Assembly (NCBI GenBank): GCA_963920765.1 | Contig: OY987247.1 | Location: forward strand, 3,596,001-3,660,000 | Source: Ulota crispa | Lineage: Eukaryota; Streptophyta; Bryopsida; Orthotrichales; Orthotrichaceae | Direction of reading: 5' to 3' | DNA: 64,000 nt | Part shown: positions 13,694-58,729 of the stretch, piece after piece | Layout of the letters: every line of letters begins with the position of its first letter | Position numbering within the stretch: the stretch's first letter is position 1 | Program-made: the position numbers and the translations under genes | Notes under the pieces: generated by a model | What the model was told of the DNA's origin: nothing | Databases searched by the model: none | What the model saw: the letters and a program-made list of their open reading frames with translations, nothing else

Positions 13694-14612
13694 TTAACTC
13701 CTAAAGGACCAAGCAAAGTTTTCACCAACTTTTTTTCAAAACTGCCATTTTTAGAGCATCAACCAAATTTGAAAACAAGAATGTTTTTATGCATATGTGA
13801 TTGTAGGATCTTGTAAAAGAATGGTTTTAGAAGATGTGGAAAAAACTTCAAAGTTTTTTGCCACATGGATTGGAAGGTAGAATGGTTTGAATATTCAAAA
13901 ACGTCTTGTGAAAAATCAGGCAGCTACCCTTCAGAAGGTGAAATTCCTAAGGAAAAAAGGTCAGGTGGGTAGTGCTTCTCTAAATTCCTCATTTGACCTC
14001 ATTAAAGTACTTGTCAAAAAGTTTCAAATCATTTGGAGATGTATAACATATGGAAAAAAATTAGTAAGTAAAAAGAAGTAGAAAATGATTCAAAACACTA
14101 AATTGTTAAGAATTTAATTATGGAAATGAAAAATGTCATCCCAATGGTCATAATGTTGTCATAAAAAATCTTTATCCTTCGGTTTTGTTTTTTTCCAAAA
14201 TGTTGAAAATTGAATAAAATAAAGGACTTCAAAGTTTATTTTGAAGTAGAGAATCCATAACCGCCAGCAAACAAAAACTCCTCATAACTTTCATCTCATT
14301 GATCAAAATGGAATGATTTGAAGCATCCTACATTCATGTAAATCTCCTAAACCAATTTGATTTTTTTTTTTTTGAAAAAGGTGATTTTTAAAAATCTGCC
14401 CAGGCTGCCCAACAAACATAAAAACAACATACTAGGCCATAACTTTTTACTCATAATTCCAAATTTCATGAAATTTAGTACATATGAAAGATAAACCTTG
14501 TCCCCACATTTTGTTAAAATTTCAACCTAAAACATGAAAAGCTCCAACCACTGGTACCTGCCCAAAATTGCTATGTTTCTAAAAAAAGGGGTTTGGTCCT
14601 TTTAGGGGTTAA
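13694..14612. mobile_element. TTAA-flanked TIR element, copy 1
   Basis: The element runs from CTCCTAAAGGACCAA at 13698 to TTTGGTCCTTTTAGGGG ending at 14608, and TTAA flanks it directly on both sides (13694-13697 and 14609-14612). The interior shares ATTGTAGGATCTTGTA with the copy at 57805-58729 and CTCATAACTTTCAT plus TCATTGAT blocks with the copy at 26647-27670. No transposase frame is present, so it is non-autonomous. Confidence 0.8.
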
Positions 14613-16923
14613 ATTGTAAGAGTAGTTGAATGATTAGGAAAAAGTTGTAGGGAGTAATTTTAGACACATGTCAAGAGATGGGACTCAAAAATAAACAACT
14701 GTGTGCTTTGAAAGTGCCTACATGAAAAGCTTAAGGTTGGAAATGGAAAATTAATTTTTGACTTGGTGCAAGAAGGGAGTATTAACACAATATTTGTTGA
14801 AGTGGGAAAAACTACTAGTTTTGGGACTTTTGAATTTTGGTTTTGTGAGAACATTTTGGTGATTTAGAGTGACTTTTATAATAATTCTTTTAAGTTATTT
14901 TATTGTTAATGTAAGATCTTGAAGGAATTACCATGAAACTTACTGTAAATTACCAAAATACTCTCATAAATCCTAAATTTAGAAATCCTAAATTGGTCAT
15001 TTTTCTCAATCTAACAAATATTAAAATGTATGTTTCTTGTCCAAAGTATATGTTTTAGTTGTCTTTTTCTATCATTAAATATAATCTAAAATTTACCTAG
15101 ATTTATGTGTACTAGAATTGTGTTGTTTTGAGCGGTATATTCATATGTAGAAAGTTGCACTATGAATTAGTCAAAATTAGGTCAGGATATGGTTATATGA
15201 TTAGTTGTTATATGTGCTTGAATATTGAATCAATTTGAAGTTGAGTTGGGTGTAGCATGTGTCATCCAAGATTTGAATGGAAGTTTGTTAAAATCCAATT
15301 GGAAGTTGCCACGCTTAAATTGTGATCAAGTAAACAATTCCAAGTTAGAATTGGAAGGATATTGTTTGTAATATCAATTGTAACAAGTTGGCAAAGAGGT
15401 ATAGTTTAAAATGTCAAAGGCTATTCTAGTCATTGCAACAAGTGGTAAAAAATTTATCACTCCAAATTGAAGTAGATATTAAGACACAATTTTGTTCATG
15501 TTAAGTAATTTTGATGTTTAGCTTGAGATTTGGATTGATGTCAGACAAGTAGGAATACATCAAGTTATTAGTGTGTTGCTGAAGAGAGTAAGTATTTGAA
15601 TGAAATGGGTTGAAATTTGAGTGATATTGAAATGCTAAAACTCTATATTTCAAGTTTGACATTTCAAAGGACAAATAATCATCAAATACAACATGCCTTA
15701 GTTGGCGGAGAGAGATCTTAAACAAAGGTAGAAGAATTTTTCTTGCTTGTAATATACTAGGAGAAAAGTATAATATGATTAAAGTATGATAAGAGCCATA
15801 ATTGGAAGTAAAAAAAGATGAAGTGGAGAGTGTAATAAAAGCAAAGTCGTGCAAAAATGATGTTGGGTATTGCAAGCCAAGTTGTATAATATTGAGCCGA
15901 GGTATAGAAGAGTTAGACCAATTGGCAAGAAGAGTCAAGAATCTAGAATAAAGATGTGGAAAGAAAAATTGTAAGACTTTAGTCCTCAATTGTTTATTTA
16001 AGTTGGAAGAAAGACATAATTCCAATAATTGGTAATGGAGGAATTGAATAGGAATTGAATTATACAAACTTTTGAATGGGAAGATTGTAAACCACTTCAA
16101 ACATAATCTAGCAATTGATAGAAATTAGTAGCGTCAATTTTGGCCTCCCTTGGTTTGTAAGGACTACTATTAAGTAATAAGCTCAAAATTCAATCAACAC
16201 CACCTCTACACCAGTTGCAAACATACACCCCTTCTATTATGCACTCTCTACAAATTTGTATGTACGGTTATGTCTTGACTTGTGGACTTCAAGAATTTTC
16301 TATTAAAAAAATTACAAATACTTTGCATATGTGGAAAATTCTTTGTGTAAATTACTCCTCAATAAATAAACAAAAAGCTTCCTATAGAGTGTTGCAACAA
16401 AGACTACCTCACTTACCTATTTGCAACAATCCAACCAACAACAATGATTAGCAAGATTTGTCATTGTTGTTTATAAATCCAAAAGACATGTTAATTTCAT
16501 TCTAAACAAACCATGTCCAAACATAAATATATTATTAAAGCTATATCAAATCATTACTTATGGTCTCATTAATAAAAAAACTTTGAACTCCCTTCTTTCT
16601 TACTTTCTTACTTGCTATTGGCATGAAGATTTTGAGCCAAGAATTGAGGATGTCCTTATTCACTATAGACAAGCTAGAAAGTAACAAAGCTTAGATTTTT
16701 TATCCACCCACTATCAATCCCAAAAAAATCCTAAAGTCAAATGAACAAAGGTTGTAATCACATGCTTTTACCACGTTGCATCTTGGCATTGCTCTATTTT
16801 GATTTTATCTCCTTTCAAACTTGATATGAAGTAGTTTAATCTTTGTAAATCCTAAGTTCTAATATTCAATTAGTTTATTAACAATACTATATAAAATTAT
16901 ACTATTATAATATAATGATTGTA
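14613..16923. other. AT-rich intergenic stretch, no supported gene
   Basis: No known gene is seen. The longest open frame (minus strand 16100-15501, 199 codons) is rich in Leu, Ser, Phe, Tyr and Asn as expected from AT-rich DNA; it has no recognisable domain or splice context and is not called. Confidence 0.5.
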
Positions 16924-17347
16924 AAAAGGGAATTGATATATGTACCACCTCTTTTCAATTATTCTACCACACCTATTGTATATGGCCAATATTTATAAGA
17001 TTAAAGTAGGTGTGAACCACAAGCAAAACATCACTAATTTGAAAACTTAGCTTGACATGGAAGTTGCATTTTCAATTTTTCTGCAACTCTTGATCCTACT
17101 CATGGTATCAATTAAAATAATTTTAAATTGAAATAAGCATAATTTATATTTTTTAATTGATACTATGAGCAAGATCTAAAGCTAATCAATTTAGTTAAAG
17201 TTGCAACTTTTATGACATGTTATATTTTCAAATTAATGATGTTTTTCTTGTGGTCCACACCTAATTTAATATTGTAAATATTGGCCATATATATTAAGTG
17301 TGGTAGAATAGTAAAAAAGGAGTGGTACATATGTCAATTCCTTTGTA
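16924..17347. mobile_element. foldback MITE with GGAATTGAYATRTGTACCAC ends (copy 1)
   Basis: AAGGGAATTGATATATGTAC at the left pairs with GTACATATGTCAATTCCTTT at the right. The arms pair inwards: ATTCTACCACACCTATTGTA, TATATGGCCAATATTTATAA and TTGATACTATGAGCAAGATC all have mirrored partners. The centre is a hairpin near 17110-17165. The same terminal sequence with an unrelated interior occurs at 34873-35283. Confidence 0.85.
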
Positions 17348-19628
17348 AAAAATATTAATTACAACCAATTTTTAAAACATTGTTGATGTTAAATAAATAG
17401 CATTTTATCAACATGAATGATATCTTAATACATGAATCTTTATTGGTATCAAATTGTATTGTACTTAAAAATGTCATACTAATCATGTTAAATTTAGTCA
17501 CATCTCTACTCAAATGGAACTTCACCCTTAACACATGTCATTTTTAATTGCCCTAGGAATCAAAACACCCCAAAGACAACAATCAGTTTTACCCTATAAA
17601 ATTGCATATTGTTCTTGAGATTCACAATTCTAAACCAACAAGGAAATTTGCCCTTAACAGGGATATATATATAAAGTGTGATAATGAAGAGTTCAAAGTC
17701 TACTAATAACTAAAAATGTGCTAATTGTGTTTTTGTAGTTAATCAACCAAAAGCGTCAAATTACCTAGAATATCTCTTAACCCTTTAAGGACCACGCAAC
17801 CATATTTTGGTCATTGGGTGTGGTTTTTGGCTTGTAGGTTGAAATTGCTTAGTAATTTGGAATTTGGTCTTGAAGTACGCATGTGATCACAAGAATTTTG
17901 CATCCATCTAAAAAAATAACAATGCAATTGAGTATGTGAGTTGACAAATAATGGTGTTTATACGGCATGGCTTCAAAATATGTATCCAATTTTTGTCAAA
18001 GATGGATCAAAGCAACAAGACAATACTTCAAGTATGCAAGAAGAATGTCAAATTCCAATTGCACAATTCTAAAAAATTTCAAATTGCTTAAGAAATATGC
18101 TTGTATTGTTTTCCTATACAGTAGTAGTATAATTGTAGTATTTGAAGACCTACTAAAATGTTGTTGTCATTTTGGCTTTAAAAAAAGACATCCTACATTT
18201 AAGGCCAATTCTTGATTGTTTTCACCAATTGGATTTTTTAGAATAATTATCAAATTTTTTGTAGAACCATTTTAGGGTAGCAAAGAAAGTGGGTTTTTTG
18301 ACGCATTTTGTCCACTTAGCTACACCTTGTGATTGCTATTTTTGTCTATTTAATGTGAAACTAGTCTTATTGTAAAGGTGGGAAACCCTACTTTTTAGAA
18401 ATGTAAGGCTCTTTTCAATCAAAGCCTACATGAAGTGTTAACATTCAAAACCACACAAGCATGAAACACTAGAGATTTTCCGCATACGGCTCACTCAATC
18501 ATTATAATGTTTCACCTCTAATGGTAAATCTAGCTGAAATTTTGGTGTTTTACAATAAACAAGGTGTACTTCCCATTCATACGGTTGGATTATTGAAAAT
18601 GGTTCTATATTTGAGTCAATTCCAAATCTAAGCTTTGAGCCCCTATTTTCAGTGGATTTTGTGAAAATGGGTGTGGTGATTAAAGGTTTAACAAGAATTT
18701 CCTCTAATAGCACTTTAAAGTCCAGATATACGTCAAGAATTGCTTATGTGTATACATGCAAAATTAAAACAAGTCAAATTCAATTGATGGATTTCCCAAA
18801 AACATGTGCCTTAATTTTACCATCCTTATGTTGAACATTACACAATACAAATGTATGTGCTTATTAAGGTACACTTTTAGCAACATACCTGGTAAGAAGT
18901 GATCCCACCTTAAGTCAGCCTCTCTAACATTAGACTTACTAACTAAATAATTGATTGAGCACCAAGAGAATTCATACATATCAAGAGCAATCCTCTTCTG
19001 CAAGAAACTCCACACAATGCAAGAAGAATCATCTTGTGTAGTCGCTCAACTCTCACATCAGCAGCAACCCAACGAAATCCACGAATCACTTACAAAGAGT
19101 CGGATTTAAAAGGACCAAACTGTAAAAATGAGCAAACTAGTTTAAAATATTACATAAATTTTCACACACAAAAAGTATCCACATCAGTGTGAGAAAATAT
19201 GACATTTTACAAGTTGATGTTCCACATAAGCTGCTATTTTAGTTCTATTTACTATGGGTTACCAAGTAATGTAAGGTTAGCTAAGTGGGAATGTATGATG
19301 AAGCTCTTTGCTAAGAAAAAAAAAAGACCAAGCTAGATTTGAATCACAAGTGCTACCATAAACGAATAAATATACATCCCCCTCCCTCCCTCGTGGACCT
19401 TGTCAAATGAGGGTGGTTCAAACCTTTGCATTGAAGTGAATCAATAATAAGAAAATCTAAACAAAAGTTCAGCGTTTCTTCTACAAAAGGAGCAGAAACT
19501 GTAGTCGTGAAAGGCACTTCAATGCAAAGGCCTGAATCTCGCTATTGACAATGTTTGTCCTTCTACTGTCAAATCAAAAATCATACAGCAGAGTGTTACC
19601 TTTGGTAGCTTGACGACCATCCTTGTTT
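17348..19628. other. AT-rich intergenic stretch with one isolated TTAA-element end
   Basis: No gene is seen. At 17777 TTAACCCTTTAAGGACCA matches the end of the TTAA-flanked family, but no partner end was found. Short minus-strand frames at 18495-19015 have no recognisable domain. Confidence 0.5.
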
Positions 19629-19945: not shown

Positions 19946-19999
19946 ATTTTGCCCTTTTGAGCTTCGCATTGATGAGTGCATTGTCGTTGAATGCATGTC

Positions 20000-22900
20000 T
20001 CAGATATTTGCAAAGAAGTGATAAGTCTTGGCATTAATGATGATGCTCCGAAACGAAGCTATGCAGCCAATCACTCCGACGATAGAAAACACCACAATGA
20101 TGGTCCAGTTCAACCAAAAGACCTTGGTTTGTCTTGAAGGTTTGAACACAAGCTGGTAGAACAGCATGGGTAGAACAAAATCCAGGGGCGTGTACCCAAA
20201 CGCTCCTATCAGCGACACGATGTCTCCAAAGAAAGGAAGCATTGCTGCCAGGAACGTGGCAATTGCCAAATAAAGAGATCGGACCACAAGCCGAGGTGCC
20301 ACGTTTCGGATACTGTATCTGCCTTCTCTGACATCTGCGGTTTTGCTTTCCAGAACCTCATAAATTGGTTGTACATACACCTGCACCCATTGCATAGTTT
20401 GAGTTAACCCCCCAAATTTCACCTTAAACCCTAATTCTCGTGATGTGCATCAAGTACAATTCCTAAGTTGAAAAACTCCAGTGACTCTCAGCTGTTATGA
20501 GTGGTTTCTCTAATTAAAATAAATAAAAGAATATATCCATTTGAGCTGCTCATTCTAATTGGCTGAGAGAGTGTTGTGGTGCAACTTCCAATGACGTGTA
20601 TATTTTTTTAGCACAGTACCAACAAAGGAGATGGGTACATGCATAAAGTGTTTTACATTGAGATCTTTTAGCAGAGGACCAACAAGGAGAGAAGGGTACA
20701 TACATAAAGTGGTTTACACTAAGACTTTACTTTGAATCTTGGTAGGCGTTTGTGAGTTTATCAGTCACTCATGGTTTAAATGTTTGTATTGGCCACATTT
20801 TGTGATAAGATTGCTACCATAGAATTTTCTTATCACAGGTATATTCATGTTGCCTCCGTTGGTACAACGAGTACCTAAACTTGTTAGAATATAAATATTT
20901 ATTCTATCCTTATCCCCAGTTTTTAGAAGATTCCAACACGTGTCGTTTGGATATCAGACGAATCTCATAGGGTGAGTGAAACTATGGGTAGGCTTTAACA
21001 TTTCAGCGAGAGCACATTTTCGCATTTTAACAGATTCTAAGTATGTATAAGCTAGTGACATTTAATCCATTTATGACCTGTTCAAAGCTTACCTAGTATA
21101 AAAAGTTGGTTTCTCGTGTGTTATAACAGAAGGGCTTTTTTGAGACTTACCAAACCAATAGCAAGGAGCTGTGCGACAATAGCGATACTTGCAATGCCCA
21201 CCAGCCATTGTGGCAGCAGGTCTGGACCGTCATCAGGAACTAGGTTATCAAAAATGTTGCCCTGGGCTTGGTTACCGAATGCCCAGTAGCCAGAGATGGC
21301 CACAGGGTAGAAGGTGACAAATACAACTGTGTAGCACAAGGCAATACCCTTCTCCATCTTTCCTGTTACAGGAGGTGCCACAGTTGCCTGTCACAGAAGT
21401 CCAACATGAGAGTCAACTAGGCATAGTACTACAAAGTGCAAGATAGTGAACGCGTACCAACTGCAAAGGACGCAAAATGATACATTGCCTTGAAGATTTT
21501 CTTGAACAGTAACCCTAAATTGCTTAAAATGTATTTTTCATAATACATAGGTGCTTTTAATTACCTACTTTGATGCTTCTGAACTGGTTTATATCAACTC
21601 CTTAAAAATATGGAGATGACCACTTGTGGCCGGAGCATTCAGGACCCCTTAAGGATGTTGCCTACCAAAAGTGTTGGCCGTATTCATACGAGGACAATTT
21701 AGTACTTGAGGAAATGGTTTTATGACAAATGTCAAAATTTCCCAAAAAATTTTAGGTGACCGGTAGTATATTCAAGACTTGGCTTAAATTTTACAGCTCC
21801 AATGCAATTTATGTGCCATCCAAATACCCCATCCGTATACAACACAAGAAAACGTATACAATACAGCAACATCCTTTAGGGGTTAACAAGACAGTATACC
21901 TGTATTTCAGGGACGAGAGCCACACCATATACCCCAGCCATAACTGACAAAGCTGTGAAGACTCCAAAAGTTTTGTGAATGGGGCTGCCTTCAACACTGT
22001 AGTGCTTCGGGGGAGCGTCTGGGTTAAACCCTGTCAAGGAAGAGCATAAGACATTCTCAGTTCAAGACTTAATATTCTACATAGAACACGAAATTGATTA
22101 AACATAAAAACACACTCAAAGGCCAACATTCACTACTTTAGACAAGTTTCAAATGCAGTGGGAGAGCCTTTTGAGAAGTTCTAGAGCCAGACCTGCAATA
22201 ATGGACCCGGCCAAAGCGCAAGCACTGTATGTCAAGCACAAGACGAGAGAAACGAGACTTATATATCGCAGTGAATGAAAGGATGGCAGTTGTGCTAGAA
22301 CCATCATCACAGCACCAAAAGCGGCCACAAATACCCACAGCTGAATTGGGCCATGTGGAACTAGCCCCTGATATATGAGCTGCATTCACACAACATCCAA
22401 AACGGCATTCAAATCTTAGTTTTCCTTTAAAATTGTCTGAAGGCGATGACAGGACATCCATTGGGCAATCCTCCAGTGATCTGAGCACAGTTGCTAAAAA
22501 TTCTAAGATAAGATAAGGGATGCAATTAGGGTTTAAGATTCTCACCTTACAGCCATAACCCCCAGTCAAGACCACTCCAATTAGGGTCACAAAACAGACT
22601 CCGAACTGCACAGGTGTCACGAAATACCGTGTCCACGTTTTTCCTGCCAGTTAAACCCCAACAGTCAATTCTTAGAACCACATTTCAACACTCCAAAAAA
22701 GGACCTAATTTTTATCCATAATGAAAATTGGATAAAAGGTACATGATATAGAAACTGTTGAAGTCCTGGTCTAAGGTAACCTTCCCCATACCAACCGCTC
22801 CCTAATGCCACACTCTACATTTGAGGTGTTCACCACTCATTGTGAACCCAAAGTGGAGCAGTGAATGCCACTTACATAAGCAAATCCTGTCACATGTCAG

Positions 22901-25595: not shown

Positions 25596-25768
25596 AGTGC
25601 CCACCACTCCCACTCTCTCCGCACCACACCCAGTGATACGCTAGTGGGACCACAGGGATAGTAGTATAGTATAATACGACCTTCGTTGCCAAAATAAGTT
25701 CGAATGAAATTACAGTAAGTTATACCCCAACTTGACAATAGTATTACTCAAAACAAGTTTCGTTGCCG

Positions 25769-26150: not shown

Positions 26151-26646
26151 GGCCTTTTGCATTCAAAGGGCCATGCTTGGTTTCTGAAGTCAATGCTGAC
26201 TCGCTCACATTCCAAATCCAAAACTACCTGTTTTTTTTCTTTTATCTTTTTTTGAAGGGTTTAATGCAATAGTAAACAAAAACTAGCTAACGAATATGTC
26301 TTAATTAGAAAATTAGGAGTATTGATAATGCAATAAGATTTCCTTAAAATTATTGTGTACAACTTAGGGGCGGTTCACACTATGTCTCACGTCCTAAGCC
26401 CCACTGAAATCTAAGAATCTTATTGGTGTAAAGTCAAAACTTGGGACTTGGCAATTCACACTATGTTTCAAGTCCCTTGTCTTGGATGCTTACATGGCAA
26501 TACTTTTTTGAAGTTTTAGTGCTAAAGAAGGTGGGAATTCACTTAAGGTTTGGGTTGACCATTTTGCTAGGTCCAACTTTCAGTCCAAACACCACTAATG
26601 TATTTGCATATAATACTCATGACTTCCTTTGGAATTGCTTGTTGCT

Positions 26647-27111
26647 TTTAACCCCTAAAGGACCACTTGTCCTTACGGGGGACAAATGGGATTTTAGGCA
26701 TGTACTTATGACTAAACTACTTTGTGTACATTTTTGAAACTTTTATGGAAGATGGAAATTCAAAGATCTATGTGGGCATCTAATTTTTCCCTCATTCTAA
26801 CATTTATTGAAGAAGTTAAAAATGAATTTATGGGAATTTTTGTTCGGCGGGCAGCCCAAAAACTTCTTTAAAATTTTCATTTTTTAAAAATAAAAATTTA
26901 GGGTTAGTTCTTTAGACCAACGTATATGTGGGAAGCTTTGAACGTAATGTTCAGTAGCGCTTGGTGGCAGCGCCTCCCTCCAGATGAAAAGGTGTGGAAT
27001 CTTCCACATCCATCTTTAGCTATGGGGACACTTGGCTGAAATTGTCAGAGAGTTTATGAGAGAGAGGCTCAGTTTAGTGCACAGACGTTGATGTGAGGGC
27101 CTACCATGTCA

Positions 27112-27147
<36 letters not shown>

Positions 27148-27670
27148 CTTTTTTTATATTTTTGGTCAAATGAAGTTTGTGGATGATACCTGAAGAGAGG
27201 GAAAGGCAACCTCTCTTCAGGCTACTGAATGTTATGAATCATTCAATTCTAATTGATGAGATAAAAGTTATGAGAAGTTTTAGTTTGCGGGTAGGCATAG
27301 TTTTGAGATTTTCCACACCTACCATCAAACTAAAACTTCTCATAACTTTCATTTCATTGATTAGAATTGAATGATTCAAAGCTTCCCACATATATGTAAG
27401 TCTAAAGAATTGACCTCAAATTTTTATTTTAAAAAAATGAAATTTTTAAAGAAGTTTTTGGACTGCCTACCAAACAAAAATTCTTGTAAATTCATTTTAA
27501 ACTTCTTTGATAAATGTCGGAATGAGGAAAAAATTAGATGCCCACATAGATCTTTGAATTCCCCATCATCCTATAAAAGTTTCAAAAAATCATACAAAGT
27601 AGTTTAGTTGTAAGCACATGCTTGAAATCCCATTTGTCCCCTGAGGGGAAACTTGGTCTTTAGGGGTTAA
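26647..27670. mobile_element. TTAA-flanked TIR element, copy 2, with long inverted arms
   Basis: CCCCTAAAGGACCACTTGTC begins at 26651 and AACTTGGTCTTTAGGGG ends at 27666, with TTAA directly outside both ends. The arms pair over roughly 300 bases each: CATTTATTGAAGAAGTTAAAA against TTTTAAACTTCTTTGATAAATG, and GATCTATGTGGGCATCTAAT against ATTAGATGCCCACATAGATC. A second stem of about 50 bases lies inside (AAGTTTTAGTTTGCGGGTAG with its partner near 27320). The left side is interrupted at about 26944-27147 by unrelated sequence ending in a 28-A run. Confidence 0.85.
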
Positions 27671-29016
27671 TAATTCAACTAAGTTGGGATCTGGAGTTGC
27701 AATGGGACTTCTAAAGGTGGGACATGGGGTGTGATGTGAACTGCCCCTTAGATTATCTCTAGTTCATTGGGATGGTGAAGTTTGTACCTTGTCTTAGGAA
27801 TAAAGGCAAGAAATTTTGGGGCAAAGGTTCAAGTTTGGTTACTCTAAGTGGTTTGAGGATAAGTCAACACCTAAAAAGAGAGTCACATGATTAATTATGA
27901 CAACGTTGTTCCTAATTGCATCAACTTTTAGTTGGGCAACAATTACAAGAGAAAGAAATAAGTAAGTTGTTGGCCTCCAAACAAGCTTGGCAAATCTTCA
28001 AAACACCTTGCACAACCCACTCAAGGTGTTTTTTTTTTCAAGAATGCCCTTCTAAATGCAACTTGGATTTCAAAATCTTTTCAATACACAATAAAAAGGT
28101 GTATTCTAGTCATTCTAACCACTACTAGTATATAGTGGAGATGCTCTTAGTTTGTGTTTGTTGACATTTGTCAGTAGTAATAGTGAAGTAAGTGCAATTC
28201 ATATGATTATCATTTGATTGTATATGGGATATTAAAGCAATAAATAATATATTTGTATTTTGTTTCTTGGCACAATTGGGATGTTTTCTGTATAAAAAAA
28301 AGTCATTTTGACATTCAAACTAAATTGTTTGACTTTAACCCCTAAATGCTCAATTGACCATTTATCCTATCATGATTAGAGCCCATTACTTCATATATTT
28401 TAGACCTCAACAATTCATGACTTGATTTATTTAGACACTATCCAAATATAATGTGTTGAAGTTCTATCAAACAAAGACAAGAGCTACCAAAAAAGAAATC
28501 AAACTTATTAAAATGAAAACCAATTCAAACAGTTAGAAACCACATGAATGACTCCTGGTACTGTACAAAGCTTCAATCTGAACTTCTCCTTCTAATCAAT
28601 CCACACAAGTGTCATTACATACTTTTCTTTTGGCATCAAATTGGAGCAGATAACAAGAATTCTACAGTCAATTGTCTATATGCCAAGCAGAATCACAACA
28701 ACAAATAAACATATATCTCCATTTAAAAGTAGAGTTTAACTTTCACAAACCCTTTTGCTCTAACCAAGTTTGCTACACCAAATGCACAAGATTTCACAGA
28801 AAATCATGAAACTGAAAATGGCTTTCTTTGTACAAAAATGTACACTTCAGATTACAATGGCCCCCCGGAATTGGTGGCTCGAGTACCTAGTATAAGAACA
28901 TTACCTCATTCTCGATCTAAACAGCACCAGTGTTAGTTAAACGTGTTCTACCATTGGACAAGTAAGCAACCAATGTGCTTGGTCTCATTTAATTACTCCT
29001 CCCATTAAAGGTGCTT
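27671..29016. other. intergenic, no gene seen; one isolated TTAA-element end
   Basis: At 28335 TTAACCCCTAAATG matches the ends of the TTAA-flanked family without a visible partner. The part near 28560-29016 is probably the 3' UTR of the DUF1350 gene. Nothing else was recognised. Confidence 0.5.
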
Positions 29017-34831: not shown

Positions 34832-34872
34832 TTTTTTTTTGTCATTCCCAAAAGTTTGAATATTGGATAGTG

Positions 34873-35283
34873 AAAAGGAAATTGATATGTGTACCACACC
34901 TTCTTGACTATCCCATCGAACCCCAAGGTAAATTTTAGATTTCTACCATCAAAAATCTGAATTTGAGAATTTGAAATTCAGATTTGAACTCATAGACCGT
35001 GATTTTGTCTAAAACCACAAAAAATGTTTTAATTGAACAACACCCAATGAAAAAGCTTATCTTTTTTATAAACAAAAGTAAAAGTTGTACTTTTCCCCCA
35101 AGCTAAGCTTTTTCATTAGGTGTTGTTCTATTATAACATTTTTTTATGGTTCTAGACAAAATCTAGGTCTCTCAGTCCAAATTTGAATTCCAAATTCTCA
35201 AATTCAGCTTTTTGAAGGGTAGAAATCTAAAATTTACCCTAGGGTGTGGTGGGATAGTCAAGAAGGTGTGGTATGCATATTAA
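34873..35283. mobile_element. foldback MITE with GGAAATTGATATGTGTACCAC ends (copy 2)
   Basis: The left arm GTACCACACCTTCTTGACTA pairs with TAGTCAAGAAGGTGTGGTA on the right. Further inward pairs are AGGTAAATTTTAGATTTCTA with TAGAAATCTAAAATTTACC, and AACAACACCCAATGAAAAAG with CTTTTTCATTAGGTGTTG. The termini match the element at 16924 but the interior does not. An isolated TTAACCCCTAAAGGACCA end follows at 35280. Confidence 0.85.
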
Positions 35284-36408
35284 CCCCTAAAGGACCAAAG
35301 AGCCCAATATGGCCAAATGGGGTTCTTGGAGGTGTAAAAGTAGACCAAATAAGGCATTGCATGCTCAAGTTTTGGTTTGCCACTCAAGTCCACATGGAGC
35401 TAAAAGTCCTACAAAATTTTTGGATCGGCTTGTTGTTCCTTGAAGCCTCTAGATTTTGCACCCAAACATTGGAATTTACTATTTTTAATACTAAAACTAT
35501 TAGTGGAAGTGTATATAAGCATTGTACATTGCATTGTGGATGGAGAAATTTTGAATGGGATGGGTTTGAAGCCCACACTTTCATGTATAAGGGAGAAGGT
35601 TGGTGATGTATCACTTTTTTTCTCTCGATTGGACAAGGTTTTATAGCTCTAAAGTAGTGAGCCAGCTAGATCCACTTACTTTGAATGACCATAAGTTTTG
35701 GAGTTTTTTCCCATTTGAGGAGTTTTTTTTTTTGATCAAGTATAGCTAGACACGGTCTCATGGGATCAACCATTAGGTAATTTTTTTTTTGAGAAAAAAT
35801 CAAATCAAAATCCAAAATCCATATTGTGAATTGCTACCAAAATCAACAAATATGAGATTCTCAACAGTAGGGATTTTGCAAATTTGCTTGGATTTGGAAG
35901 CAGAGTAGCCTTAAACTTTTGATTTATAGTTGGGTATAGAATGTCTGGTTTGGATTGTGTGAGTACTTGTTCAACTTTCTAAAAATTAAGAGAATGTGGT
36001 GAAGGTTCCATACTGGAGGTATGCTAAATTTTCTTAGCAAGACGCTTAGGGATTAATTCCCTTGTGAAAATTGTGAAACTTAAATATGTGTGTACAAGCC
36101 TTTTTTGAAAATACTTTGCATACACAAAATGGAGTTACGGTCTATTCGCACTTGGACTTAACGTTTACGTAATACCCTTGTTTTAAGTGGTTTAAGGCGC
36201 ATGTGTTAAGACCAGGCCAGGGTATTAGACCCCGAGCCTAGGTGGATGCAAAGCTAGTTTAATTATAAGACCAGCACTATCGGAAAGCATGAGATAATTT
36301 CCCAAAAAGCTAGAGTTAACATGCAAACTTTAAGAAGCTAAAAATCTAGTCAAAAATGGACATTTGAAGGCAAGGCGGGATCTGCGAGGTGCTCATTTGT
36401 AGTGTCAC
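35284..36408. other. AT-rich intergenic stretch
   Basis: It begins with the TTAA-element end at 35280, for which no clear partner end was found (CTTAGGGATTAA near 36048 is a weak candidate). Open frames at 35244-35646 are short, overlap on both strands, and match nothing I know. Confidence 0.45.
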
Positions 36409-39256: not shown

Positions 39257-39305
39257 AGATACTCGTTATATATTTATGTTTGTGTTGATTTCAATAAATC
39301 AACAG

Positions 39306-39901: not shown

Positions 39902-40740
39902 ATGTGAGATTTTTTTTTGTGTATACATGATTTTGAATTGAAATTTGAGGAGGTTGTCTCTTGTGTGATTACCTTTCCAAAATGAGTTTGCAAATTTGAT
40001 TTGGAGTTGATATGCAAAAGTTATGAGTGTTTGAATTTTGGAGTCAAAAAGCCAAACTATGAAGAAAGGCTAAGACTTTGACAAGCCATAACTTATGATC
40101 TGTATATCATTTTGCAACAAAATTTGAAGGGAGTGATTATCTTAGTATTGGCTTTTTAGAAAGTCTTTAAACTTGAGGTTTGAAGCTTGGACAAGAAAGT
40201 TATGGAAGTGTAAAGGTTTGGAGGTGGCTACCCTTTTGTTAGGAGAAAGCCGAGACTTTGAAGAGCTACAACTTTTGGACAGTATGAGATTTTTTTCTCA
40301 AATTTTTAAAAGTAATAGTTTGTTGTCATAGCTTTTCAAATTGTCTTTAATCATTTCATTTGAAATTTTATTGAAGAAGTTATAGTGGGTAGAAGTTGCG
40401 GGTTTGGGTGCTCTCTAAAAAATTGAGACCCACACTTTGATTGACTAGAGCTTTTGGACAGAGTTTTGTTTTGAAGTGAAAATTTTATGGGTTGTAGCCA
40501 GTAATATCATCTTTTTAAATTAATATCACGTTTCTATGGATGATGTATAGAACAAAAGTTATAGAGTTTTATAGAGGCAGTGTTTAGTTTGTAAGGAGGA
40601 AGAAGAGCCTCTACTTTGAACCCATATAACTTTTGGACAATATGTTAAATTGAGTTGAAATTTGAAGGAATATTAGAAAGTTAGAAGAGCTTTTCAAATT
40701 GCTATTATACTTAGCATTTGAATCTTTGAGCCATCTGTGG
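39902..40740. repeat. degenerate tandem array, period 179-180 bp
   Basis: The anchor ACTTTGA ends at 39902, 40081, 40261, 40440 and 40620. Each unit then carries a variant of CATAACTTTTGGACAGTATG, a TTTGAA/TTTCAAATTG block and GAAGTTATGGAAGTG. The units are well diverged. Comparable tandem spacers occur in the non-coding 3' part of some plant LTR retrotransposons; that comparison is from memory. Confidence 0.7.
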
Positions 40741-40804
40741 CACTAGATAGAAGGTCGCTGCTTTTCTAGGACTTGTTATTTGTGATTTTCTTCATTATTT
40801 TTAT

Positions 40805-40872
40805 TAAAACATGAAGACTTGAAAACTTGAAGACATGAAAACTTGAAGATCTGAAGATATGAAGATTTCAAG
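40805..40872. repeat. short tandem repeat of GAAGACTTGAAAACTT-like units
   Basis: GAAGACTTGAAAACTT, GAAGACATGAAAACTT, GAAGATCTGAAGAT and ATGAAGATTT follow one another. Similar GAAGATTGAAGAC pieces recur at about 41250-41292. It lies just past the ~180-bp array. Confidence 0.75.
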
Positions 40873-42091
40873 AGGAATGTTTTGGGTTTATTTTTTATGT
40901 ATGTGTGGGATGTGGCTTTGTTATTCCTAGCCGGTTTTGGAGGCTCGTTTGTCAATTCATTTCCATTCTGTTTTGTAAACCTTGTTGCGGGCAGTTTGGG
41001 TTAAACCAAACTTAACCCCATTTATTGTCGTGGTGACAAAGTGGGATTGACCACCCACATGGTCGAGACTTGCTCTGTTCTCACGATCTGGAGTTTTGGC
41101 CAGTAAATCGTGAATTTGAGTTTAGGATCCCGTCGTACGGACAGCAGCTCGTGTCTGCTGTCCTGATCTACCCATCCCGTATCCAGTGGGCTTTTATCCC
41201 TACCTTGACCCTTATACCCTTAGAGCCAGCCACAGGATAGGCCAACGGAAGATTGAAGACTAAAGATTTGAAGAGAAGATCAAGATTGAAGACGATTTAG
41301 TCGACAACGCACGATCGCAGCAAAACACCCTGCGTATTCCCAAGGCGCGTTCCTCTCAACCCGACAGCGGCACTTCAACGCTTCATCGACAACAACATCA
41401 GACACCCAGATTCATCACTAACACAACAGAAAAACAGAATTCTACCTACAACTATAGCACCCTCGAGAAAGGAGAGCACCCCCCCCCCCCAATAATTCAG
41501 AACTAAGAAGCAACCCCCTCAAGGACCCGGGCCAAATTCCCCTTTGAAAATTTCCTATTGCAATTAGAGGTGTGCCCAAGATCGCTACTGCAACATTGCC
41601 GATGGCTGCACGTGCTGCCGACATGGATTAGCAGCCGTATCCTTGAGCACAAGGACGTAGCGATAGTCAAGTGTTTTTCAGCACCTCCACTGCCGTAGTG
41701 GCACCAGTCAAATCTGCTTCAGCATCCGATGTTGATTTCCTTGGCATGCACAGTAGGATAGGCAGCAGTTAGGGTACAAATTCCGGAGAGTTTGAAGCAA
41801 TTGACGCTCTCAAATTGGACACTATATTTTCCATCAATGCAATTTTCACTTCATCTCAATGCAGACGCAGTAGCTACTGCTATGGTTCATTGTCTTTCAT
41901 ATGCTTGCACATTGCAATAACTTATGAGCACTATTCATTGCATTTGATGTTTTATAATTGATTTCACATGATTCTGCAAAGTGTGTCAATGACACTATGT
42001 GCACTCCCAATACCCGTTCCATATGCAAAGTATAACAAGCATCACTAGAAAAACAAAAATTTGAATTAAGTAGAGCTGGCTTTTCTCACCT
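40873..42091. other. repeat-rich spacer, possibly LTR-retrotransposon remnant
   Basis: No gene is seen. The stretch 40910-41300 is GC-richer than the flanks and resembles LTR/leader sequence only in character. A ten-C run lies at about 41470-41480. Short frames around 41630-41900 are broken by stops. Confidence 0.35.
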
Positions 42092-50500: not shown

Positions 50501-53500
50501 ACCACAATATACAAGCCACAGCGAGCACGTGCAACCTGGAATAGGACGGTGAAGAAGATTAAATGCACAAAGCTGGACCCGGAAAAAACATGTACATCTC
50601 ACCGAAATTAACTCGTAAGTCCACCCAGAAGAACCAAGAGGCCAGATACAGGAGCATCACACCAAAAACAACAGGGAAGTGAAAAACTTCTTGAAGAGTT
50701 GGATTACCAACCAAAGAGGATTTCAAATACAAAACAAAACTATATATATGTACATACTCCACACCAGCTTGAACTATTAGACATCAAAACATAGTTCATA
50801 AGATGCAAAAAAGGTAGAGGACTAACCAAGTGTAAACTGCAGTCCGCCACAAAAAGTATACCATTAGGACAGTCAACGGTATTCACAGGAGTGGCATGGG
50901 TAGACGGTGGAAAAGAGATGGATGTATATGCGATGCGCTGGCTATGCCTTGCCGTTTGTAGTAACCAAGGCCGATCACTGAGAGCTACGATATCAGAACT
51001 CAATGAACCCTGCAAAGAGATTAAAGAAACAGGAGAAACACCTATTCTCCGTACAGCAACCAGATGTAGTGAGACGGGTGGAGAACCCTCCCCCACATCT
51101 TTGTTTCTTCTCAGACTTGGCTGTGTGAGCTCTATACTTTCCGAATCTAAAGTCGGGAGCAGATGCTTGGAAGCAGAGAACACAGCACCAGAGCTAGGTG
51201 GCCACTCATAACGCAAAAGCATTCCATTCCTCAACCCAGCAAGTATATAAAGCCCATCAAACTGCGCAAGTCTCACGCTCTCAGGAACACACCCGCTTAG
51301 TGTTGTCCCTACACAGCTTACAAGAGAAATGTGACCCACAGCCAGAGGAGCCAAGCTTTCACCAGGAACTATAGAGAGAACTTCCACTGATGGCTCATGA
51401 GTCCCTACAACACAGATCTGGCCCACTTCAACTCCTCCCGGGTTCCTGCTTTTGGGAGAGCCTTCCACTAGCCCAACAATAGACGGCGGCAATGGCGAGG
51501 ATGTCCAGTCTTCTTCGTCAGGGATTGATATGCAAGATAATTCGGCCTTTAATTCACATTGCTGCAGTACACAGAGTTCCAGAGCTCCATTGGTACCTTG
51601 CCGAGAGCCCAACATCACGATAAGCCCGGGTTTGGATAAGGCTAGAATGATGCTCTTATTTGCTACTGCTCCCAAACTTACAACAAGACCCTGTGGAGGT
51701 TTCCATGATGAACAAAGAGGGAGAAGTGAATCTATGCCAACTGGGTGAGCAGCTCTAGTCGGAACACAAACAGTAACCTCTTTACTGCAGACCTGAACCA
51801 CATGGTAATCCTCAATTGTCCCACAAGCAAGTGTAGGTGCACACGGCTGAAACCCTACAGCCTCAGTGATATCCACAAAGTTGAGCCCAACTGAAAGTAC
51901 TCGAGTTTCCTCAACAAAGGACATCACAAAGAAAGCGTGGTATGGGTCCCTGCGGCACATCCGCATTGTATATGTTCCTGTCACACCCTGGGAGCTCACA
52001 ATGTCATTAAAGTGCATTCAAAAACTTGAGATCAAATCATAGGCTTATGCATTATCTTATCTGGAGACGGAAAGCTCTTTCTAGGAGTGAACAATTTTAA
52101 GAATACAGTTGATCACAATTTCATATCAAAATGACCTAAGTCACTATCTGGGTCACGGTGGTGTCAGATGCAGACTTGATCTAAAAAAAAGTAGACATTT
52201 TTGAAGGAGACAATCACCTGGTATATTGGAGATGTTGTGTGCAACTTCTCAACACTAATCCCGTTTCGTATCACACGTAATGAGCCCTCAATACCAGCCC
52301 CTGAGCACGCAAACATCTGATCTTGTTTCTCGTTGTGGTAGTTGGCTAATGCAAAATCAAGAATAGGAGCCAAATTTTGTATAAGGCTTTTGCAACTCAC
52401 TTTCCCACTTTCGGTACACTGAAGAACCTGCCCGTCTCCCATCTCAACAAACACTGCAAGAAAATCTCCCTTCGTCCACAAGACTAAATTGCAAGGAGAG
52501 CATTTATACTGCTGCTGTTGAACTTCGATCCGAGGTACACCGTCAGAATCTCTGAAGCTCAAACGTGCCAAAAGTATCTCCCCTGTATCCATCGCAATTG
52601 CAAGCCTCGATTGACCTTCAGCATAAGGTTCCCAGTTCCACGCCGTGATAGTTGGTAAGGATAAAGGATCAAAAAACAAATCCACGACTTCTACAGGTTC
52701 AACGTTGGGATCTACAGGTTTCTTGTAATTGCCGTCCTTACCACTTGATAAAAGCTCAAGAAGTGCAGATGCTGCTACACTATTTAAGCTGCCTTCTTCT
52801 TCATCCAAAATTTTCTGAAAACTACAGACGCCAGCTAATGAAGGACTACTGGGACAGGTCAGGTCAAGTAGAAGTAGTTCCCCTGGTCGAGAAAGTAGCA
52901 GAAAACCAGGAGCTCCAGGAACATCCAAAATACTGATCCCCAAGGGTGATGTGAAGGGCCTTACTATAGAAGGGTCAAACCGAGCCTTGACCTCAATGAT
53001 ACGCTCTTTGGTATCGCACGTCAGGACAAAGATTTCATTGCTTGCGGCACCTTTCCTGTGGACAAGCACTACGAGAAGAAGAAGCGCCTCTGAATTAGCT
53101 GTTATTGTTGAGCTCTCGTCTGGCATGTTAACAAACGTCATACTCCAGATCGTTCCCCAACCTGTAAATTTCTCTTCCATTTCACTAGAGCTTGCTTCCG
53201 ATAATCCTGTCGAACTCAGCAATTCTTTTGGATATATCATTCTCTGTGAACCGCAGCGATAATATGTAAGAAGCCAGGTGTAAAACCATATCATTCAAGG
53301 AAGCACTTTAGCCTAACAGTAGAAAATTTCATTTCTGCACAATGAAGCTATAAATAAGCAATTCTATCTATTCTCAAAGAAAGAGAAAAAGGAAGGAAGG
53401 CAAAGAAACCTTATCGACAATGTTATTTCCAGCAGCTATGGAGGTGGGGAAAATTGCAATTCTGTCTTCGAAAGCTGCCACAGCGACTGCACGACCCCTG

Positions 53501-55284
53501 CACCAAATCATCATTCAATGTAGCCTACTTTTAAAAGTTGAAGGTATACCATGCTAATAGGGAATAATTGTAAGTTGGAAATTTGAGCATTATCTTGATT
53601 CTTGAGCAGTATTTACATGATAAACATAACTTCCGGCAAATTAATCACCTGGCCTCAATTGCAAGTAGTCTTCCCAATTCTCGTCGCAAGTTTCCATAAT
53701 CTGCAATATGGACTTGTGTAACAGCCCAAAATCTGACAAAACCACAGCGACATATTTGTTCATTAGTCTTCTAAGAAATGATAGCATTCCTCTAATTCGA
53801 ATCCAACAACTACACCTACGTAACAAAGAGTGTACTTCACCGTAAGAAACACCAAGTTAAGACGTAAGTATGATAAATGTGCTGTGTAATCCAAGGTTGT
53901 TTAGTCACACATTAATTACGCTGCATATCAGAAAAAATTAGAACACTCAAAACTATTTTAAAGTGCATATCTCTAAGGCACCTTAACTGCCTCTTGTTCG
54001 GCCAAAAAAAAAGAAAATTCAAGAAAGAAATACCTATGAAGCTCAATGTTGAAGGTCAAAAAAGACAACTTCCCCGAATCTGAAAGAAGCACCAGCAAGT
54101 CCTTCTCATGTGTCTGCATGGATCCATTTGCAAATGCTTAACTTCGGCTTTCAAAATGAATTTCCCAAATCAGAAGAGTTAGATTAAATTCAAAGGAAAT
54201 AAAGAGTGCTTGTAGAGATCTAGAAAAACTTGGCATAAAATTGCTTCTATTCTGGGTAAGCAAAATGGGCGATCTATACAAGAAATACTTCGGAGGTTAC
54301 ATGTACGGACTGATAATATCAACAATGTACAGTACGACCAATTGCGCCCTTGCTTACTATTTGAATTGAGTTCTGTCTAGAGACAGTAGTTCACAATGTT
54401 GACAAGGGCAAACACTTGTGTAAATAAGCAGACATTCAGAGTTACAATACCTACCTGTGGATCTGGACTTCGACGAGATTCATTCCATGGCAAAACCCGA
54501 AGATCTTTGATTGTCCCAAACACAGGCTGCTCGCAAACTGACTGAACAACACCATCCTCGCTCACGACCACAAGCTCCAACGATGTCTCCTGCCAATAAC
54601 AAACACAAGCGACAAAAATTCAAAGAATGAGACGGCAAAATATCCTCCCTCTTCAACTCAGAAGCCTCATTGAATTGCTCTGAACAAAACACGTCCTTCA
54701 AACGTATTACTTTCTAATATGAGCTGTTTAGTTGCATGAGGCAGGCTTACTCAATTAGGAGATTGCCAAAAAATACAATTAAGGAACTCAAAATATTTGT
54801 AGAGCTGCTCCCAGTCGTTTCTCTCCATCGAGAAAAAGTCATTCAATTAGAATACGAAGAATATTCTAACATAAAAAGAGTGAGACCTACAGAATCTCTA
54901 TGAGAAAATCGGATTCCTAATGAACCATGCACGGCATCAAATGTAGCTCCAAAAAGCATCTAACCTTAACGAGGTTGACATTCAGCCACTGGATTATGTG
55001 CTTTACAAAGTTCCTCTCACACTAAATTACAAATGCAAGTATGTAGGGAGTGGAATATCAAAAGAACCGAAAAGATAGAGTAAGGAAGATATCGAAAAAA
55101 TTTAAAAAAAGAGAGTTAAGCATTTTGTCTTTACCTTGCCAAGTACAACGTCGTATGTAGAAGCGCATCGAATGTGACCATAAACCGCGTGCAACACCAC
55201 GCTGCTCCGCTGCACACATTTCGCTAAGTAGCGCGCTTTAATTGACTCTCCAGGGTCTTCTCCTCCTCCATCCTGAACCGCCAT
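47535..55284 (-). CDS. CPSF_A / MMS1-N beta-propeller protein (DDB1/SF3B3-like, At3g11960-type)
   Basis: A large WD40-type multi-propeller protein of the DDB1/CPSF160/SF3b130 superfamily, matching the plant orphan clade annotated as 'CPSF A subunit protein'. Fifteen exons join in phase to 1381 codons: 55284-55135, 54589-54455, 54113-54034, 53732-53649, 53497-53410, 53243-52218, 51987-50827, 50458-50148, 49993-49711, 49483-49328, 49107-48966, 48817-48741, 48454-48315, 48149-48041 and 47738-47535. The N-terminus has VVLHAVYGHIRC and IADYGNLRRELGRLLAIEAR (MMS1_N). The two long exons hold blade-like repeats, e.g. LAQFDGLYILAGLRNGMLL. The CPSF_A part has HLSRIAVGDCRDGILFYSYQ, VLMDMDTAAVTDRRGNF and LSLSCWYHVGETLMRIHKA; the C-terminus ends VDRVLRLLERVHNSLA. 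Role inferred: scaffold in ubiquitin ligase or RNA-processing complexes. Confidence 0.92.
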
Positions 55285-56396
55285 TGCTGCTTCACTATTG
55301 TTCTCCCCTATTGATAACGAAACGCTTAAAATTCACCACTTCTCACGCGCTGCACTTGTACTCAATCGAACCATGCCACTAATTGACACAAACTTTGCTA
55401 CAATCCCTAACATTCCAATCCAATCAGCCAAACGCTTCCAACTCCACAAAACTAAATACTACTCTTGCGATGTCCAATTCCACAGCACGATTGTCGCGAT
55501 ACATCGCCCCTTTCACGTCGCTGTAGCTGCTCATTTCTCTCTTTCTCAACCAATTGCTCTCATCCAAAATAATCAGTCTTCTCGAACTTCCAAGTTGGCT
55601 CCATTCAATAACTCGAACGAAAAAACTCTTCAAAACCAGAGGCGACGATAGGTTTCCGGGAAACGCCAGTAAGACTAATTTACATTGTTGCCTGCCGTCT
55701 AACAAAAAATGTTAAACAATAAAACAATCTTCGAGTAAAGCTCGCTGCTGCAACGTCGGTCCACTTCTTCTTCACACACTTCGATTCCTTGGTTGCATTC
55801 GGAAAACATCGTGTCTCAATCAATTATCCACTGCAAAACTAGAATTTCAAATCCAAATTCACCACGAAGAAGACACACGAATCCGAGTATCTTTAGAATC
55901 CGAGAAGCCACGGTATCCGCTCGTTTCGCATCCTCGCTCGATTTTGCTTACCAATGGTGATAAGTTACTCAATTTTCACAGACACTCCGGAGAATCGAGC
56001 AAGGAAAGAACTGTTGAAAACGCCAATTTTGGACCAGTTTAGTTCATAAGTACTACTGCACCTGGCTCATCATGACGCCATTCAACCAGTATCGCAAGGG
56101 CTCCATCGTCGAAGCTCTTGAATTTCGATTCCTTTTGCCAAACCAAAGCAAGGACAGCGTCTGCGGGGATGTGAGTAGGTCCCGAAACCCTAACCCTAAC
56201 TCGGGGCTTCTCTGTTCTGGTTTGGTCTGGTCTGCAGTCTTGGCTGACAGTCTGCCATCAGGCAGCTCACTATTGGTTTGAAATTTCAATTCTGAATGGT
56301 TCCTCCTTTTCACGCAGTGATTTCCTGACTTTAATTTTGGGAAGGGGGGACCAAAAGTATTTAGAATGTATGGGCAAAATTTTGAAGTAATTTTAA
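55285..56396 (-). promoter_or_regulatory. 5' region of the CPSF_A-like gene with a telo-box
   Basis: GC-richer than the surrounding DNA. AAACCCTAACCCTAA lies at 56185-56199, a double telo-box, about 0.9 kb upstream of the ATG. Open frames on either strand (for example 56072-56281) match nothing known. Confidence 0.4.
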
Positions 56397-57129
56397 GGGA
56401 GAATTTAGTGGATACCCCTCAAGTTTGCAACATTTTCATAAATGCTCCTGCTTTTTCAGAAATTACACAAACACTCTTGGACCATGCTTTTTGGGAATTC
56501 CAATACACTCTTTGTTAAATTTCCCACATTGCACCATGTTTAGGAGCTCTATAAAGAAAAGAAAGGCAAAATTCATATATTAGATGATCATTTATTGATT
56601 AATGGCAAGTATACTTGTTCCAAGTTTATATATACTCAAAGTCATGATAATGAAGCAAAGTTTAAAAGAAAGAAAGAAAGGAAGTGTGGACAAAAGTATG
56701 GAAGGAAGAAAGGAAGAGCAGAGAAAGAAAAGTAAGAAGAAAGGAGAGACTAGAGTACGTTTGTCATTATCATTAAATGGTCACTCAATAAATATGAAAT
56801 TTTCCCTACTTTTCATTATATAACTCCTAAATATGGTGCAATGTGGTGGTTACAACAACAAAAAGATGGTGGATTTAGCAAAAATTGTGATACATTTAGC
56901 AATTCCCTATTTTTTAGGCATTTGTGTTTTGTGCATGTACTTTCTTAAAGAAGGGAATGTAATGAAACAAAAAAGAAGCAACATGTGCTCAAAGGCAGTT
57001 AGGAAGTGGCATGCACAATAAAACAAACACTTGAAAATTGTGGTCCAAATGTATTCGAGTAATTTTTGAAAAAGCAAGGGTACCAATGTAAACATAATCA
57101 AACTTCAAGTTTATCCATGAAATTTTCCC
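56397..57129. mobile_element. hairpin MITE of the 'ATACCCCTGAAGTTTGC' family (copy 4), split by a nested element
   Basis: The left arm (GTGGATACCCCTCAAGTTTG through CTTGGACCATGCTTTTT) ends near 56492. The right arm resumes near 56908 with TATTTTTTAGGCATTTGTGT and ends CATGAAATTTTCCC at 57129. Removing 56493-56907 leaves about 320 bases, the normal length of this family. Confidence 0.8.
56493..56907. mobile_element. nested foldback element inside MITE copy 4
   Basis: GGGAATTC at the left and GCAATTCCC at the right are inverted. The arms pair inwards: TTCCCACATTGCACCATGTT against AATATGGTGCAATGTGGTGG, and TAGGAGCTCTATAAAG against CATTATATAACTCCTA. The centre is purine-rich (GAAAGAAAGAAAGGAAG), which explains a spurious Lys/Arg-rich open frame. 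Confidence 0.75.
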
Positions 57130-57323
57130 TAATTTTCAATTGGGCCACAAATTGGGGCAATTATAAAGAAGGGCAAAATTTGAAATAATTACGTGGATAT
57201 AATTTGCAGTAATTAGAAATAAGGACACACCTACAATATTGTTGCTCTCCTTGCTCATGCATCAAATTGTCAACCATTTCACTCATAGCCAACCATTTGC
57301 AGCCCACTGCCCAACCTTTAGTA

Positions 57324-57637
57324 AGGTAGGAGCACCCATAAATGTCAAACTAAGGGTTTTGAACATGATGACTATTAATAAACAACTAGCAAATTATAAG
57401 ATCTTATTAGGAACAAGAAAAAGATGAGTTTGCACTTTCAAATGTATTATTTGGATACTGTGAGATTAAGTTATGAATTTTTAAAGAGCAAACTGCCATT
57501 GCACCCATAACCACTTTTAAGAATTCATGTTCACATGCTGTACATTCTTGTCATTACATCTATTCATTTCCACAGATTTTTCAAGATTTCAAAAGTGATG
57601 GTTATGGGGACACTCACGCTTATGGGTGCTCCTATCT
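57324..57637. mobile_element. MITE of the ~315-bp TIR family (copy 2)
   Basis: GGTAGGAGCACCCATAAATG at the left is mirrored by CTTATGGGTGCTCCTATC at the right. The whole element is the reverse complement of 329-641 (for example CACATGCTGTACATTCTTGT mirrors ACAAGGATGTACAACATGTG). Confidence 0.85.
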
Positions 57638-57804
57638 TACTCCCTAAGATCCCTTAACAAAAACAATTGCTCATAATGTGTAGGCTGGCTTTGTCTCTTC
57701 TTGCCACATTTTCTACATTGGATGTGGTCACAATTGTATACTACAATTCTCTAGGTATTAGAGGCAAACTTTTTATGAGAACACTCTTTTTGTTTGGACA
57801 ATTG

Positions 57805-58729
57805 TTAACCCCTAAATCCCTCGGGCCTTTATTTTATCAAAAGACACCAAAAACTACAATTTCTATTGCAAAGAGTAAAAAAGTTTGAAAATCGGTCTTT
57901 TTGTATATCTAATTGTAGGATCTTGTACTCAACTTGTATAAGAATGTGCACACAAAAATCCATAAACTTTGGCCGCACAAATTACAAGATATTTGCAATT
58001 GAATTGTAAAAAACAAGCTTCTTTGCACCTTGCATGACTAGATTATTTGACTTTGAGCTTTTTTAACTTAAAATTTTTGCATTGCAAAGTTTTGAGGTTT
58101 ATTTTTTTAAGGTGGAAAATTGAGTTAAGAATCTTTGAAAAAAAACGAAACCAAAAATACATAATTTTCATTCTTAAAAAAATCATTAGGTGGATGAAGG
58201 TTTGAGATTGAACAAAAACTTAAATTGTTAATAACCCTGTGATGGAATTGAAATGCAATAATCCCAATGGTGAGATTGTTCTAGAAAGCAAACTCCACCC
58301 TCTCCAACAATTTTTTATGAAAAAATGTTAAACTTACATTCAAAAATGAAGTTTATAATTATTTTTTCAAGAAGATGCTTGAATTGCCCGACAAACAAGA
58401 TTGTCCATGACTTTCTCATTACTAGTCCAAATGAAATGAATCAAAGCTTCAGATGTATCAAAACTATGACCTATAAGAAGAAAAAAAATTTAAAAAAATG
58501 AAGATTTTTGTAATTTTTTTTGCTGCTCGATCTCCATAAATTTTTGCTTATTTAGGCATAACTTTTGCTTTTGGGCATGGATTGGTATAAAATTTATATT
58601 TCCCAAAAGCTAATATGGTTTCCTATCTTCAAAAAAAAATTCAAAAATTAAGACAAAAATTGAGGCTGTAAATACCTACCCAAAATATCCTTTGTACCCC
58701 AAAGGGATACTCAAGGATTTAGGGGTTAA
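57805..58729. mobile_element. TTAA-flanked TIR element, copy 3
   Basis: CCCCTAAATCCCTCGGGCC starts at 57809 and CTCAAGGATTTAGGGG ends at 58725, with TTAA immediately outside each end (57805-57808 and 58726-58729). Its interior shares AATTGTAGGATCTTGTA and a late ACCTACCCAAAAT block with copy 1. No transposase frame is present. Confidence 0.82.

Follow-up and report, generated by a model that had tools for sequence, protein, structure and literature searches.

PiggyBac transposons insert at TTAA and have ends that start with CCC, two features shared by a family of short repeats in the moss Ulota crispa that we describe here from a 64,000-nucleotide stretch of contig OY987247.1 (assembly GCA_963920765.1, positions 3,596,001 to 3,660,000; the window) and from the rest of the assembly. 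The core of the piggyBac transposase of Trichoplusia ni (PDB 6x67) is homologous by sequence to transposases of the moss at the level of distant similarity; its host is an animal, whereas the moss is a land plant with very many short derivatives. PiggyBat (PDB 9c0f; Myotis lucifugus), the best PDB match to one of the moss transposase frames, also comes from an animal. Pokey and mPok of Daphnia likewise combine autonomous and short groups, the latter miniature inverted-repeat transposable elements (MITEs), within one piggyBac family; they differ in their animal host and in being known for insertion into ribosomal DNA. Other sources give typical piggyBac elements as about 2.5 kb, against 7–8 kb for the long elements described here (PMC10813416), count PiggyBac as one of seven angiosperm MITE superfamilies (PMC10004981), list it among plant superfamilies (PMC10794571), report 1,230 PiggyBac matches covering 122 kb in a partial assembly of the fern Ceratopteris (PMC6890710), call plant occurrences occasional while naming red algae (PMC12732532), and name plants as hosts without detail (PMC8086355; PMC10813416). 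No transposase evidence is given in those passages for the angiosperm MITEs or for Ceratopteris, whereas the moss elements have such evidence and a far higher abundance.

The short repeats are almost certainly non-autonomous cut-and-paste transposons of the piggyBac superfamily. Directly observed are their ends, the TTAA context of these ends, transposase homology within matching ends, long and short copies that are homologous at their ends, and a very high copy number. An earlier note, made from the letters of the window, had put forward the piggyBac assignment as an inference; transposase homology inside two long elements with matching ends now supports it.

Genome-wide counts were made on the host assembly (274.8 Mb in 157 contigs). 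The exact 17-mer TTAACCCCTAAAGGACC occurs 8,154 times (4,072 and 4,082 by strand) and its reversed control not at all; with up to 3 mismatches the counts are 59,908 and 702, respectively. TTAA directly precedes 4,495 (84%) of the 5,336 occurrences of the 15-mer CCCCTAAAGGACCAA, a pattern that does not contain TTAA, which bears on the earlier note's provision for copies with other flanks elsewhere in the genome. Inward-facing ends with up to 3 mismatches to the 17-mer and 200–1600 bp apart gave a sample of 42 copies in loci fetched from the genome (L numbers; contigs are given as C numbers), leaving out L003 and L006, which overlap L002 and L005, and counting both identical copies of the L015 duplication. 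This sample is biased, since exact matches guided the choice of most loci and TTAA is part of the pattern; in it, 38/42 copies have TTAA on both sides and 4/42 have one altered side (ATAA, TCAA, TCAA and CTTA); the median length, counted without one TTAA, is 923 bp (range 238–1499). The 84 ends have the consensus TTAACCCCTAAAGGACCA, with variable sequence further inward, and each position of CCCCTAAAGGACC is conserved in 87–100% of them, a value overstated by the selection of ends with up to 3 mismatches. The inverted repeats begin with CC(C/T), as in piggyBac elements. By a rough motif rule that leaves many ends ambiguous, the ends fall into two types, and many copies combine both. A looser count with TTAA outside the pattern, covering the window and fetched loci other than L001–L008 (again mostly chosen at TTAA ends), placed TTAA before 93 of 107 ends. 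The inverted repeat of all ends also contains CCCCTAAA, which resembles the host telomere repeat CCCTAAA; the likeness is probably coincidental, although binding of the motif by a protein that recognizes telomere repeats is conceivable.

Short repeats of similar size and copy number are familiar in plants as Tourist MITEs of the PIF/Harbinger type, which would make the moss copies ordinary MITEs with a 3-bp duplication. The flanks are mirror-symmetric, with TTAA on both sides and no TTA direct repeat, so that the 3-bp TTA/TAA duplication of PIF/Harbinger elements was rejected, and the long partners contain piggyBac-type coding sequence; the chance that the copies are Tourist elements is next to nil.

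A 4-bp TTAA target duplication, as in piggyBac, is found in this analysis. Adjacent copies have a single TTAA in common (L012, 1414/1419; L018, 209/214; L029, 8477/8482). Empty sites were sought by joining the flanks of 41 copies (copies with short flanks were dropped) with one TTAA and searching the fetched loci, which gave 35 alignments across the joint for 10 junctions. Exact TTAA was read for L012_2822 (4/5), L022_4380 (1/1), L024_7155 (1/1) and L025_3932 (1/12); the other 28/35 differ (CTAG in 4, TTGC in 2, CTAA in 2, and others), mostly in relatives 70–84% identical, and we infer that these targets mutated to TTAA before insertion, or that the sites have decayed. The L018_455 alignment is a match within its own locus and is little informative. 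With one TTAA between neighbouring copies and a single TTAA at some related empty sites, the simplest reading of this tetranucleotide is as the target that is duplicated, rather than as a portion of a longer inverted repeat, the arrangement against which the earlier note had cautioned. TTAA is palindromic, and a TA duplication beside an end starting with A would give the same picture, shared and empty sites included, so the real duplication might be smaller (for example TA) or absent. We consider this very unlikely: all four sampled copies with one altered flank keep an intact TTAA opposite (in a sample whose pattern had TTAA), and the transposase belongs to a superfamily specific for TTAA.

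Two long elements tie the short copies to a transposase. The first (L028:1174–8352, contig C1; 7,179 bp) is bounded by an exact end on either side and contains, in broken pieces recovered by tblastn, transposase homology at about 5333–7022 (E 9.5e-78 to the protein of the second element); one L028 open reading frame, at 2363–2938, had no Pfam match, the transposase homology lying further on. The second (C7:11814404–11822436; 8,033 bp) has near-matching ends (16 and 18 of 19 bases), holds a nested 926-bp copy and contains a match to PF13843 (Pfam DDE_Tnp_1_7, the piggyBac DDE domain) at C7:11819342–11820496 (E 1.0e-69). Its 5' end is homologous to window positions 26646–26700 and its 3' end to many short copies. 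About 600 bp of TACA-type simple repeat, from about 4003 in L032, separate the transposase from the 3' end of this element.

Some of the ~0.9 kb copies look like internal-deletion derivatives of such elements, to judge from their alignments: L005 corresponds to positions 1–207 (83%) and 6819–7179 (78%) of the L028 element, and L019:8135–9037 and L011:8093–8985 correspond to the C7 element at 1–244 (67%) with 7448–8033 (72%) and at 1–54 (84%) with 7442–8033 (74%), respectively. The window copies starting at 13694 and 57805 match the long elements over just 28–115 bp, and their place in the family follows from full-length matches to other short copies. One open reading frame within a further pair of ends, 5.1 kb apart in L027, had no Pfam match. 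Longer elements of the kind that the earlier note expected elsewhere in the genome were found: both carry piggyBac transposase homology between matching ends, both are decayed, and no intact autonomous element was found among them. Their homology is to piggyBac and not to another superfamily, an outcome for which the note had also allowed.

Kolobok and Sola3 are likewise TTAA-targeting superfamilies, and either might have made the short copies, with the piggyBac genes nearby by chance. TTAA duplication is not exclusive to piggyBac, and the genome was not searched for genes of Kolobok or Sola3; two separate elements have piggyBac-type coding sequence enclosed by matching ends, and the short copies share about 50–240 bp (5') and 360–600 bp (3') with the transposase elements. 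Such an origin is extremely improbable.

Transposase sequence is widespread in the host genome. PF13843 gave 120 matches (best E 1.3e-73) in a search in which 116 of 527 first-look candidates were scored; 10 of the 120 have no internal stop, several of these being partial. The absence of PF13843 from 14 control genomes carries no weight, the nine named controls all being bacteria. The L031 frame, which has no stop inside the domain, resembles piggyBat 9c0f (2.6e-24) and piggyBac 6x67 (7.6e-20), the same PDB relatives as those of the L030 frame, and its three aspartates align with those of piggyBat (TVDE/SLDE, VTDN/YMDN and GVDIVDQ/GVDRADQ); by eye, the L030 frame has N at the third catalytic position. 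A cysteine-rich motif, searched by pattern, lies downstream of the DDE domain in 2/7 transposase loci (L031, where the tail continues in the same frame after one stop, and L035), with five matches elsewhere in fetched sequence; degenerate versions were seen by eye in L030 and L033. Local protein identity is 62–64% between L030 and L034, 42–58% in pieces between L032 and L028, and mostly ~24–45% for other pairs. Ends bound the transposase on both sides at 2/7 loci (L028; L032 together with L057); no bounding end was found at the L031 locus, and at most a possible 3' end at L030, L033, L034 and L035.

Several side observations concern these genes. Ends of a second group, similar to TTAACCCTTTAGCGACC, follow other piggyBac transposases ~1.0–1.7 kb downstream (L030:4535, L034:4740) and resemble the end of the window copy at 17777; they probably represent a separate lineage with its own short copies. 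Two piggyBac-type frames, C1:1180709–1181995 and C8:19570986–19572215, run open for 563 and 472 codons, respectively, with stop-free matched parts, and could be young copies or domesticated genes. Window positions 40301–41366 hold a 1.07 kb repeat 85% identical to L034:1–1050, upstream of the L034 transposase.

Some results weigh against a piggyBac origin for the short copies. About 16% of the exact 15-mer ends have no intact TTAA in front, and only 7/35 empty-site alignments read exactly TTAA. In the long elements, the homology in L028 is broken and absent from the 120 listed PF13843 matches, for which 116 of 527 candidates had been scored, the C7 domain contains two TGA stops, and the pairing of the two C7 ends across the nested copy is presumed. 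The middle of L005 (about 208–584) matches neither long element. Finally, the piggyBac zinc-finger model PF13842 had no matches in the host, and none in the controls either. With these points counted in, we still regard the piggyBac assignment as near certain.

Subtracting the control leaves ~59,200 ends, or some 30,000 copies; at ~0.9 kb each these would amount to the order of 27 Mb, 10% of the assembly, a rough extrapolation from end counts in which copy length is biased, single ends count as half copies and diverged ends are missed. Where only the best candidates were scored, the L015 copy had 38 further full or nearly full-length copies at 92–93% identity among 40, plus one identical copy nearby, and the window copy at 57805 had 39 others at 87–90% among 40. 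This flat spread of identities, to which no rate was applied, suggests past bursts and not very recent movement. Tentatively, and at a little short of an even chance, this may be a moss genome in which native piggyBac is a leading DNA transposon system, with ~30,000 copies in about one-tenth of the genome and several deeply diverged transposase lineages (~24 to 64% local identity) that are long resident and possibly still capable of moving short copies.

The most likely mechanism, reasoned from sequence comparison, is that a piggyBac transposase supplied by longer relatives would bind the ends, recognizing the 17-bp inverted repeat TTAA-CCCCTAAAGGACC together with subterminal sequence that differs between the 5' and 3' sides. 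The transposase would then cut the element out and join it into a TTAA, giving the 4-bp duplication. The ~0.9 kb copies would have arisen by internal deletion of the 7–8 kb transposase elements and subsequent multiplication in trans, a history that implies activity in the past.

Five whole copies in the window (the features below are given without strand unless one is stated) together occupy ~4.0 kb of its 64 kb (6%). Sites with up to 3 mismatches to TTAACCCCTAAAGGACC number 8, where 10 Markov-shuffled windows average 0.3; with up to 5 mismatches allowed, the excess is just 28 versus 12.5. The copy at 13694..14612 (919 bp counting both TTAA) is a whole non-autonomous piggyBac-type element and aligns over its full length with five copies at 81–89% identity (two in L010; L020, L024 and L029) and with L001 at 70%. 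The whole copy at 57805..58729 (925 bp) has diverged, weaker ends (CCCCTAAATCC..., 4 and 5 mismatches) and aligns over its full length with copies in L010 (79.6%), L015 (81.2%) and L023 (84.8%).

The remaining one of the earlier note's three full elements, all of which are present with TTAA on both sides, starts at 26648, not 26647. This whole copy (26648..27670; 1023 bp) has inverted ends of ~170–180 bp, both of which resemble the 5' end of a transposase-bearing element, matching positions 1–180 (83%) and 170–1 (78%) of the L028 element. The alignments suggest that it is probably a ~0.73 kb type carrying an insert of ~290 bp at about 26943–27235: the 727-bp copy L018:455–1181 aligns on both sides of this stretch and lacks it, and a separate repeat in L024 matches the stretch over most of its length.

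Four further ends had been read as isolated. That at 17777 begins a whole copy (17777..18691; 915 bp) belonging to a related subfamily whose ends are of the TTAACCCTTTAAGGACC type; the copy has one full-length relative at 80% (L058:1922–2837) and partial relatives at 78–94%. The end placed at 21883 is the minus-strand end at 21886, TTAACCCCTAAAGGATG, of a short copy of ~247 bp (21638..21886) that has lost its left TTAA; it is 80% identical to L019:3012–3256, which has TTAA on both sides, and to L057:1384–1632. At the other two, no whole copy was established: 28335..28351 (strand +) is an unconfirmed end-like sequence with 3 mismatches and no homologue among the fetched loci, and 35280..35296 (strand +) is an exact TTAACCCCTAAAGGACC end for which a partner end was not established, a 5-mismatch candidate ending at 36056. 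A repeat of ~410 bp (34873–35283) stops at the TTAA that borders this 35280 end. It aligns twice, with overlap, to the same parts of L014 and L009, and these alignments, which give no orientation, suggest a fold-back.

Two other points made from the window held up. Bases outside the TTAA differ between copies and have no fixed motif, and no transposase was found in the copies by tblastn with seven transposase pieces, nor in the window among the listed PF13843 matches from the scored candidates.

Elsewhere in the window, a frame at 1093–1797 (plus strand) matches NOG1, nucleolar GTP-binding protein 1; two frames at 50740–53294 (minus strand) match the RSE1/DDB1/CPSF1 beta-propeller families, with weak PDB similarity to SF3B3 and DDB1; and 6802–6891 (minus strand) translates into a PHD/ADD-like cysteine pattern, perhaps an exon of a chromatin gene. 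TTTAGGG arrays stand at 4/13 fetched ends of the eleven large contigs, runs of N at 6 and neither at 3. Contig C157 (112.5 kb) is the plastid genome, with atpA-, chlB-, rps4-, ndhK- and atpB-type genes in the two stretches read; flowering plants lack chlB. A single match to the RNA polymerase alpha C-terminal domain fell on the chromosome-size contig C2, and none on C157; loss of plastid rpoA is a mark of mosses. Telomere arrays, plastid genes and this nuclear rpoA domain together indicate a moss. The first 400 bases of contig C20 (L047) are G+C-rich and look bacterial by eye, a possible contaminant.

The elements are of a known kind, and the novelty lies in their host and scale. Literature titles and the openings of abstracts yielded no description of native piggyBac in mosses, or of piggyBac at such a scale, with subscription papers and Repbase outside the search. 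Tens of thousands of derived ends and more than 100 transposase matches indicate that the superfamily can thrive in a land plant. The elements offer a native plant system for studies of TTAA targeting, and with piggyBac in a bryophyte the question of inheritance versus horizontal gain becomes testable.

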